In this document: positions 56,492 to 59,160 of the stretch, one piece after another
Layout of the letters: each line of letters starts with the position of its first letter
Position numbering within the stretch: the stretch's first letter is position 1
NCBI GenBank assembly: GCA_029251525.1
Contig: JAQXDE010000055.1
Coordinates: 248,001-312,000 of the forward strand
From: Saprospiraceae bacterium
GTDB taxonomy: Bacteria > Bacteroidota > Bacteroidia > Chitinophagales > Saprospiraceae
Direction: 5' to 3'
Length of the DNA stretch: 64,000 nt
The notes under the pieces: model-generated
Told to the model about the DNA's origin: nothing
The model's database searches: none
What the model saw: the letters and a program-made list of their open reading frames with translations, nothing else
Made by a program: the position numbers and the translations under genes

Positions 56492-57400
56492 ATGCGAAGT
56501 ATCCTTTTTTACATTATTCTATTTTCCTCCGTTCTTTCTTCCTGTCAAAAAAACGGAGTGACAACTCCTTATGAATATGCTTTGCTTAGTGCCCATGTCT
56601 ATGATGATAAAGATAGAAAAGAGTTGCCCAGTCATTTAAATCAATTTTTAGATTTTGATGAAGAAAATTATAAAGCTCGATTGAATATCGACTTGGGTAA
56701 AGTAATTAATATGGTAGATAATGAAGATTGGAGTGCTTTGATTCCATATGTTGGCGCCAAAACATTAGCAAGGGGAGGGTATTTTGGAAGAGCTTACGTC
56801 AATAAAAAAATGAATCATTTAATCGTTGCACATCGAGGAACTGATCTGAATATAAAAATGAATGAGTTGTCTCTGGATCAAATTTCGATTGCTTTGGATA
56901 ATGGGAAAATTTGGGATATGATAAAAGACATGGATGATGACTATGATATATTTCATGGAAAAATTCCTTTGCAGCAGTTTGAAGCGGCACAGCATTTTGT
57001 TGGAGAAGTAAAAGAAAGTTATGTCGAAAAATATAAAAAATCACCCCAAATAATTCATACAGGTCATTCCCTTGGTGCAGTTTTAGCTGAACTTTGTGCA
57101 GTGAAAGATAATTCGAAAGCAATTACTTTTGAAAGTCCTGGTTCTAAGCCATTGGCCTTGCAACTTGTTGATATTCAATATATTGATATCGAAAATGTAG
57201 ACATCACTACCTACAATGCAGAACCTAACCAAATTAATACGTTACATGAACATTTAGGAAAAGTGATTCCATTATACGATAAGCCAAAATTACAATCTGC
57301 TCATTCTGATACAGAAAAAATATTATCTTTGAAATTACATCCTATCAAGGAATTACTCAAAAGGTTTGATGAAAAAAATGGGGAACCAAAACATCCGTAG
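56492..57400 (+). CDS. Class-3-lipase-like lipoprotein
   Basis: The 302-aa protein has a lipoprotein signal peptide with lipobox LSSC (Cys18). The alpha/beta-hydrolase hallmarks are visible: the nucleophile elbow GHSLGA (Ser193) and an upstream AHRGTD (114-118) of the type that forms the oxyanion region in class 3 lipases. A likely acid lies among the Asp/Glu after strand 6 and a candidate His in the C-terminal part (LHEHLGK or AHSDTEK). Phospholipids, acylglycerols or other esters could be substrates. It is convergent with the subtilisin-like gene. Confidence 0.8.
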   Translation: MRSILFYIILFSSVLSSCQKNGVTTPYEYALLSAHVYDDKDRKELPSHLNQFLDFDEENYKARLNIDLGKVINMVDNEDWSALIPYVGAKTLARGGYFGRAYVNKKMNHLIVAHRGTDLNIKMNELSLDQISIALDNGKIWDMIKDMDDDYDIFHGKIPLQQFEAAQHFVGEVKESYVEKYKKSPQIIHTGHSLGAVLAELCAVKDNSKAITFESPGSKPLALQLVDIQYIDIENVDITTYNAEPNQINTLHEHLGKVIPLYDKPKLQSAHSDTEKILSLKLHPIKELLKRFDEKNGEPKHP

Positions 57401-57483: not shown

Positions 57484-59160
57484 TTAATCCTTTGCGACTA
57501 GAAACTTTTCTGTCGAATAATCTAAGTTATTAGAAATTCTTAAAAAATAAACTCCTGTTTTCAAAGCACCTACTCCTTCAACTTTAAATTTTGCTGGTAA
57601 AAATTCCTTAGCTGTGAAACTAGTTTCTGCCATCAATTGGCCAATCGAATTAAAAATTAGCACCTCGTAATCACCATATTGATTTGGCGTAAACGCTACT
57701 TCGATAAAGTCAGAGGTTGGATTAGGATGAATAGAATTTATTGTCAAAAGATCAATCCCACTTCCACAAAAGTCATTGATTAACTCCATACTCTTTAGTA
57801 AATTAAGTCTTCCCTCCGAACTAGTTTTTCCAATTTGATCATCTTTTTTATCGACACCTCCAAGAATAAAATCTCTCATGATCAAGGAAGTCTCTTTCGG
57901 ATCTTCTCGAGCAGCTAGTGCTAATTTTTCGCAAGGCAAGCTGTATAATAACGCAATTCCGCCAGCCACATGCGGTGCAGCACCAGAGGTAGACCCTATA
58001 GTTGAGTAGGTATTATCCGCGCCAGTTGTTGGTGACCCATCACCAGGAGCAGTTAAGTCGACATTGATTTTCCCATAGCCAGAACTTAATTCATCTTGCT
58101 TGTCACTTTCTGCTACGACTATTAAATGTTCCGTTTGACAAATCGAAGGCATATCGCCCACTTCATCTACATTGAGCGTTTTGTTGTTGGTAGAACCAAC
58201 ATTTAAAACACCAACCTCTCCGAGCATTTCATGAACCTCACACCAAATTGGAAATAACGGATTATCAGATATTTGTAATCCATCAGGGTAATCTGGACTA
58301 TCTCCATCGATACCAAATGAACCATTAGAGGCAACGACGAATGCACCTTTTTGACCGTTTGATTCATTGTATAATTTTCGATTTTGGTAAACATATTCGT
58401 ATCCTTCAATGATTTTATCAACTTGCAGATTATTTTGAATCCACATAATTTTTACATTCCAATTGACTCCAGCAATTCCCATCTCATTATCACCACTTGC
58501 TCCAATAATTCCTCCTACTCGAATACCATGACCTTGAAAATCAAATCCAATTATGTCAGAAGAGTCAACCACATTCCATCCAAAATAATCATCAATAAAA
58601 CCATTTTCATCGTTATCAATTCCATCATTATTTATTTCATTCCAATTGATCCAAACATTATTTATCAAATCATCATGTCGCCAATCACCACTTTCCATCA
58701 TCGCTACCACAATGGTATCCCCCAAGGCAGTTACTCCTCCTGTGGTAATTTCCCAAACCTCTGGAGCGTTTATTATTTCCATATCCCATTGGCTTGTGTA
58801 CATCGGATCGTTAGGGACTCTTTCTCTTGGTTGTAACTGAAAATTCTGTCCAGCAATTTTTACCTCAGGTAGAGACGTTAAATTCATTAACAATGCATTT
58901 ACATTCTGAATGTCAGTTTTGGATTTTAAACTGTATAGATTGAGTCTTTCGGAAATTTTATTTTCTTTTTGAAAAATAACACCAGATTCAGCCCATTGGT
59001 TATTTATCTTTTGAAAAAAACTAGACGAGTTTGTTTCTGGTTCAAGTTGAATGATAAATTCATTTGGAATATATCGTATAGATGAGTTTTCCTTTTGGGA
59101 AAAAAGAGGTAAGGTCAAAATAAATAGAAGAATCGTCCATAAGGATTTCATATTTCTCAA
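57484..59160 (-). CDS. Subtilisin-family (S8) protein with altered catalytic Asp and T9SS tail
   Basis: The 558-aa protein has a signal peptide (about 1-21), an I9-like propeptide region (about 28-110) and an S8 fold (about 120-455). The catalytic His (FQGHGIRVGG, H211) and Ser (STSGAAPHVAGG, S392) are in place, but the Asp motif, usually VIDTG, reads MMESG, with Glu156 (codon GAA) in the Asp position. The usual oxyanion AGN block is replaced by NVGSTNN (320-326). The second His of HGTHVAG is Arg214. The C-terminus (about 475-558, HPNPTSDFIEVAFTP ... FLVAKD) is a Por-type T9SS sorting domain. It is exported but may be of low activity or a pseudo-protease. Start could be 59160 or the Met at 59151. 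Confidence 0.87.
   Translation of the reverse strand: MRNMKSLWTILLFILTLPLFSQKENSSIRYIPNEFIIQLEPETNSSSFFQKINNQWAESGVIFQKENKISERLNLYSLKSKTDIQNVNALLMNLTSLPEVKIAGQNFQLQPRERVPNDPMYTSQWDMEIINAPEVWEITTGGVTALGDTIVVAMMESGDWRHDDLINNVWINWNEINNDGIDNDENGFIDDYFGWNVVDSSDIIGFDFQGHGIRVGGIIGASGDNEMGIAGVNWNVKIMWIQNNLQVDKIIEGYEYVYQNRKLYNESNGQKGAFVVASNGSFGIDGDSPDYPDGLQISDNPLFPIWCEVHEMLGEVGVLNVGSTNNKTLNVDEVGDMPSICQTEHLIVVAESDKQDELSSGYGKINVDLTAPGDGSPTTGADNTYSTIGSTSGAAPHVAGGIALLYSLPCEKLALAAREDPKETSLIMRDFILGGVDKKDDQIGKTSSEGRLNLLKSMELINDFCGSGIDLLTINSIHPNPTSDFIEVAFTPNQYGDYEVLIFNSIGQLMAETSFTAKEFLPAKFKVEGVGALKTGVYFLRISNNLDYSTEKFLVAKD

Follow-up and report, generated by a model that had tools for sequence, protein, structure and literature searches.

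Introduction

Most bacterial subtilases carry an Asp-His-Ser (D-H-S) triad, and SprP (PA1242) of Pseudomonas aeruginosa was assigned to a Glu-His-Ser (E-H-S) family after Siezen et al. 2007, as stated in the excerpted account of that enzyme (PMC3937732). In the same excerpts the triad of SprP is predicted as E262, H299 and S499. Skim milk was cleared by SprP produced in E. coli and not by the S499A variant, and the activity was measured with Suc-AAPF-pNA; the catalytic role of the Glu itself is given there as a prediction (PMC3937732). Outside the subtilases, acetylcholinesterase has Glu as the third member of its triad (PMC9853848).

The window analyzed here, a stretch of 64,000 nucleotides from a Saprospiraceae bacterium, encodes an S8 protein in which Glu occupies the place of the catalytic Asp. 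As E-H-S subtilases are already in print in the excerpted account of SprP (PMC3937732), the candidate reading of an undescribed triad type was ruled out.

Gene and domain organization

The following features were located in the window.

56492-57400, plus strand: class-3 lipase-like lipoprotein gene (Pfam), convergent with the S8 gene and near it in 4/4 other genus members
57484..59160, minus strand: S8 subtilase gene with Glu at the catalytic Asp position; open reading frame of 558 aa counted from TTG (Pfam)
59095..59151, minus strand: signal-peptide-like N terminus MKSLWTILLFILTLPLFSQ, judged by eye from the sequence
58825..59094, minus strand: presumed propeptide, residues 23-112 (predicted structure)
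57940..58722, minus strand: Peptidase_S8 (PF00082), residues 147-407, Pfam 72.9 bits against a cut-off of 21.8, subtilase fold
58693..58695, minus strand: Glu156 (GAA), aligned with the catalytic Asp and immediately following predicted strand 149-155 (alignment, model)
58681..58692, minus strand: loop S157-G158-D159-W160 behind Glu156 (alignment)
58528..58530, minus strand: catalytic His211 (CAT) (alignment)
58183..58185, minus strand: oxyanion Asn326 (AAC), kept (alignment)
57985..57987, minus strand: nucleophile Ser392 (TCT) (alignment)
57496..57732, minus strand: T9SS C-terminal sorting domain Por_Secre_tail, residues 477-555, Pfam 34.4 bits against a cut-off of 27

The open reading frame opens with TTG (59160). 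An ATG lies three codons on, at 59151, and is likely the true start, judging from the signal-peptide-like stretch that begins there. The residue numbers, which follow the initial annotation and are counted from the TTG, are therefore probably 3 too high. Residues 35-105 formed a strand-helix-strand-strand-helix-strand arrangement in the predicted model, partly at low confidence. The NCBIfam model TIGR04183 agreed with Pfam on the C-terminal tail (29.3 bits against a cut-off of 23), and with Por_Secre_tail and TIGR04183 above their cut-offs the protein is predicted to be type A T9SS cargo. It belongs to family S8 by homology of the peptidase unit, subtilisin fold, catalytic His and Ser, and oxyanion Asn. 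With Glu156 in the column of the triad acid it falls outside the D-H-S subtilases, and by its residues, E156, H211 and S392 within the S8 domain, it matches the E-H-S subtilases.

Position of the glutamate

The window sequence DTIVVAMME aligned without gaps over DTIVVAILD of its relatives, in an alignment of homologs from the genus, the family, the order and the same genome, which placed E156 in register with the catalytic Asp. phmmer likewise matched E156 to the Asp in VIDTG of deseasin MCP-01, the best-scoring solved structure. A model predicted from 33 sequences had a mean pLDDT of 75.6, with values of 88, 89, 90 and 94 for the ten-residue blocks around E156, H211, N326 and S392, respectively. 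Its subtilase fold matched deseasin MCP-01 (3vv3) with Z 46.1 and an rmsd of 1.5 A over 310 residues at 33% identity. Helices start at 211 and 391, and a strand stops at residue 155, right before E156. By alignment and by predicted structure, Glu156 thus stands in the catalytic Asp position, and the initial annotation, which had read Glu in place of that Asp with His, Ser, fold and T9SS tail retained, was borne out on each of these points.

That annotation had also named D159 as a residue which might turn out to be catalytic. Under such a register error D159 would be the true acid and Glu156 a bystander, and it is true that an Asp sits three residues past the Glu in all 13 short-loop Glu rows of one row set. 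However, the strand ahead of Glu156 is aligned gap-free and ends in the model immediately before it, while D159 lies outside the acid column, being the semi-conserved Asp three residues before His162 that is common in Asp-type relatives too. Glu relatives reading EKGIELDH or ESGTNINH have no Asp at this position at all. D159 was ruled out as the catalytic acid by the alignment, these relatives and the strand end, and we regard a register error as the least probable of the readings discussed here.

Homolog set and residue counts

In a profile search, 286 of 298 family genomes had matches with E-values no higher than 1e-60; eight of the 27 rows of the profile carried Glu. The homolog set consisted of the matches listed except four (G174, G075, G238 and G153), supplemented with 20 matches from elsewhere in the order, outside the family, and another 40, most of which were longer paralogs. 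The filter, a match at E 1e-40 in a frame of at least 250 aa, retained 229 of the 240 candidate loci, from which 26 duplicates were then removed; the 11 loci dropped were 10 other S8 genes of the same genome and L264 (Asp). The final set comprised 204 genes including that of the window, in 205 rows (the L130 gene is split into two frames).

Among the matches listed, the acid column held Asp in 170/204 genes, Glu in 34/204 and any other residue in none, and the share of Glu is no natural frequency since the listing was ranked by likeness to a profile with 8/27 Glu rows. Read as acid-His-Asn-Ser, the matches listed divided into 168 DHNS, 33 EHNS and two DHDS, plus the split gene, which has EH in one piece and NS in the other. 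This gene (L130) is a Glu-type S8 gene broken in the middle into two frames, through either a genuine disruption or faulty assembly. Complete Glu rows numbered 33, and 31 of the 354 catalytic-domain columns were invariant across these rows, with E156, H211, N326 and S392 included. Glu was also present in two of the 20 sequences from the order's other families (L252 and L261) and in one long paralog (L272). A separate observation concerned the T391 column, directly before the nucleophile Ser, where Asn replaced Thr in 41/118 Asp rows vs 0/30 Glu rows of a smaller homolog set.

Relatives outside the clade had Asp in 62/62 aligned rows, 61 of them from viral contigs (some identical) and one from L047; two of the 63 viral loci yielded no row, and L241 and L243 were poorly aligned. 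A simple pattern found the Asp motif in 10/11 other S8 genes of the same genome. The eleventh, L010 (G000:C13:76271-76954), which brings the S8 genes of the genome to 12 together with the other ten and that of the window, was matched only from Pfam position 52 onward, and the simple pattern found neither the Asp nor the His motif in it. Because both the outside-clade rows and the ten same-genome S8 genes show Asp, Asp is taken as the older state in the sequence comparisons below.

Oxyanion block

The initial annotation had counted the oxyanion AGN block as changed in this gene, and this part needs to be revised. The window's VGSTNN aligned with VAATAN or VGATTN of Asp-bearing relatives, with Asn326 in the place of the oxyanion Asn, and so the altered block is, on this alignment, a trait of the clade shared with Asp-bearing relatives and not a second change in the gene. 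N326 was nearly invariant in the 27-row alignment A1 (90% or more of the rows) and, among the matches listed, invariant in 33/33 complete Glu rows. Loss of the oxyanion hole was ruled out by the kept Asn326. The two DHDS genes, L112 and L039, are Asp-type members of the clade with Asp replacing the oxyanion Asn.

Loop behind the acid

Counted from the acid up to conserved Asp164, the distance in the Asp rows was 9 in 168/170 and 8 in 2/170 of the matches listed. In the 33 Glu rows among these matches it was 8 in 14, 9 in 15 and 10 in four. Loop length was accordingly changed in 18/33 Glu rows vs 2/170 Asp rows among the matches listed, and the window loop S157-W160 is one residue shorter than in 168/170 of the Asp relatives in that set. 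This association suggests that the loop may have been re-cut beside the longer side chain as a mutual adjustment. An independent-pairs test of the link, with few events to draw on, gave five starred pairs and a median p of 1.

Genus orthologs, selection and gene neighborhood

The gene was present in 5/5 genus genomes examined, with Glu in all five. The four orthologs shared 88, 85, 64 and 62% identity with the window protein, and the Glu codon was GAA in three and GAG in two of the genus genes. As Glu is fixed in the five genomes with synonymous codon differences only, comparison of these genes shows Glu156 to be no sequencing slip. Whether Glu is fixed in a clade had been left open by the initial annotation; it is fixed in this genus, and Glu recurs in further clades.

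The catalytic-domain dN/dS was 0.083 for the closest pair (window vs L014) and 0.05-0.26 over 10 pairs; only the values of the closest pairs are reliable, since dS exceeded 1 in 8/10 pairs. These ratios indicate purifying selection on the catalytic domain. A BtuF-like gene and the convergent class-3 lipase gene flank the S8 gene, as in 4/4 other genus members. L045 and L046 have an extra ORF between the S8 and lipase genes (L045:3031-3813; L046:6612-7373), which we take to resemble the glutamate racemase MurI; no MurI-like ORF stands at that place in the window or in L043. With the dN/dS ratios, the conserved locus and the intact catalytic columns, decay of the gene was ruled out, in line with the initial view that it is not simply decaying.

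Recurrence of the Asp/Glu switch

A tree of 203 rows, calculated with the motif columns omitted, showed 10 Asp/Glu changes, of which at least five were forced by starred branches. One starred clade, made up of 13 rows, contained the window gene, and every row in it had Glu and the short loop. A tree of 98 rows (37 Glu and 61 Asp) showed 10 changes too; both trees were quick and unrooted, so that gains and returns are indistinguishable in these counts. The Asp rows of the smaller set, 61 of the 170, were the two nearest per Glu row plus 20 random ones, and the long-branch L167 was left out of the AU-test set beforehand. A single origin of Glu was rejected by the AU test against a single Glu clade (p 5.1e-8, 98 rows). 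As far as these trees reach, the Asp-to-Glu swap arose several times within a single S8 clade centred on the Saprospiraceae. A change of one base turns Asp into Glu, and ease of mutation might account for part of the recurrence.

None of 395 genomes sampled across the phylum contained the DNA pattern for the Glu form (strand, Glu, Gly, His-x-Asp, normal spacing), whereas the equivalent Asp pattern occurred in 75/118 genomes of a smaller draw. Within the 298 family genomes the Glu pattern was met at 21 places in 20 genomes. Seventeen of these were S8 genes, 16 of them in the clade and five of those new, and four were non-S8. Among the five new Glu members EHNS was read in four, and L307 runs off its contig before the Ser. 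All Glu-pattern counts are lower bounds, as genes with an altered loop (that of the window included) and codons outside the pattern are missed. The 17th S8 place, L309 (G033:C57), belongs to another S8 group; read by eye, its sequence VAVIERGIDYNHPDF seems to have Glu as the acid, and the oxyanion Asn seems to be replaced by Asp.

These counts bear on the possibility that Glu and Asp are near-neutral equivalents in this clade and are swapped without functional meaning, which would be compatible with a working triad. The scatter of the 10 changes over the tree between residues one base apart agrees with it, as does the normal loop in 15/33 Glu rows. On the other hand, the absence of Glu at canonical spacing from the phylum-wide draw, set against the frequency of the Asp form, suggests that Glu is not easily tolerated by most subtilases, and Glu was held in 5/5 genus members down to 62% identity. 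Near-neutral interchange is thus possible, if on the doubtful side.

Activity of the Glu-type protein

We consider it probable that the window gene encodes a working Glu-His-Ser subtilase that is exported, and that the switch to Glu was recurrent and has been maintained by selection. The protein would be exported via Sec and the T9SS. A charge relay would run through Glu156, His211 and Ser392, with Asn326 in the oxyanion hole. The Glu carboxylate would fill the role of the Asp by orienting and polarising His211, which in turn would activate Ser392. The repeated change in the Saprospiraceae-centred clade would have been maintained by selection, and in several lineages the longer side chain may have been accompanied by shortening or lengthening of the loop by one residue. 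Several observations make a working triad the simplest account: an acid is retained throughout, together with His, Asn and Ser, purifying selection acts on the domain, and the switch recurs. In a protein that had lost catalysis, free drift of His and Ser would be expected. The precedent of SprP raises the odds of activity further.

A pseudoprotease, with catalysis lost and the protein retained for binding or as a scaffold, might be supposed from the replaced Asp, and subtilisin-like pseudoproteases do exist, e.g., CspC in the excerpted report PMC6199464. CspC of P. bifermentans, however, shows the opposite pattern in these excerpts, with His and Ser absent and Asp kept (PMC6199464). The loss of His and/or Ser that marks pseudoproteases of the CspC type was seen in none of the Glu rows: among the matches listed His, Ser and Asn were present in 33/33 complete Glu rows, and an acid in 204/204 homologs. 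Loss of catalysis therefore appears very unlikely.

The main alternative to the working triad supposes weak catalysis only. A slowed triad would suffice for a single removal of the propeptide, and the mature protein would be mainly a slow or binding protein of the cell surface. Self-processing would still conserve His, Asn and Ser, and the unusual oxyanion block of the clade (xxTxN for AGN) may mean that high turnover was not selected. Against this, columns S281 and G283, which are presumably the counterparts of the wall of subtilisin's S1 pocket, did not vary across the 33 Glu rows, nor did N326, which is what cleavage of substrates would predict. SprP moreover turns over external substrates, according to the excerpted account (PMC3937732). 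Weak catalysis is accordingly judged unlikely, though less so than its complete loss. The initial annotation had offered an altered-activity enzyme or a binding protein; judged by the retained acid, His, Asn and Ser and by analogy with the active SprP, the enzyme would be the better fit and the binding protein would not be favored.

Significance of the recurrent switch

The potentially new element is that Asp was exchanged for Glu repeatedly within an Asp-type Saprospiraceae clade, in many cases along with a one-residue change of the loop. Full-text literature queries, not phrased for exactly that and with MEROPS outside their scope, found no published account of repeated Asp-to-Glu switches in Saprospiraceae. 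As a tentative extension of the working-triad reading, several independent Glu-His-Ser switches may have occurred in the Asp-type clade, the loop sometimes being re-cut, with an origin apart from the family of SprP. The shifted pKa of the His and the changed geometry might then lead to a different pH optimum, slower and more selective cleavage, or altered sensitivity to inhibitors.

As the E-H-S triad itself is already in print, it is the repeated switch, with its pairs of Asp and Glu relatives, that gives the locus its value. Close relatives differing exactly in the third triad residue, several times over, form a natural test set, and such evolved enzymes would let the role of this residue in charge, geometry and His orientation be tested. 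Filters based on residues could also wrongly call Glu-type genes inactive.

Comparison with known systems

Like SprP, as far as the excerpts of its description go, the window protein is an S8 homolog with a predicted Glu-His-Ser triad and is exported by prediction. Unlike in SprP, where E262 and H299 are 37 residues apart in these excerpts, E156 and H211 of the window protein are 55 apart. The S8 domain of SprP is also described there as preceded by a 233-residue domain of unknown function, whereas the window protein has a short presumed prodomain, which leaves no room for such a domain, and a T9SS tail. The nearest relatives of the window protein outside its Glu clade are Asp-type. Its origin looks separate from that of the E-H-S family of SprP, which was compared by description and not by sequence, because it is nested among Asp-type relatives, has a spacing of 55 vs 37 and a T9SS tail, and lacks the 233-residue domain.

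The Asp-bearing Saprospiraceae homologs of the clade, such as L019 and L020, share about 40% identity with the window protein along most of its length and resemble it in the oxyanion block and in a size of about 550 aa; unlike the window protein, homologs of this type have Asp and a loop of normal length. Deseasin MCP-01 (3vv3) shares a homologous domain, the fold, and His, oxyanion Asn and Ser in place, whereas the window protein has Glu for Asp, a loop shorter by one, xxTxN for AAGN and a T9SS tail.

The pseudoproteases CspC and CspA are, in the excerpted source, S8 homologs with altered active sites, as is the window protein. However, CspC is described there without His and Ser and with Asp, while the window protein changes only the Asp, and to another acid. 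Ser-His-Glu hydrolases such as acetylcholinesterase have the alpha/beta-hydrolase fold, which is unrelated to S8, and offer an analogy only. In the sedolisins (S53), which have a subtilisin-like fold, Glu is part of the catalytic set as well and stands in for His.
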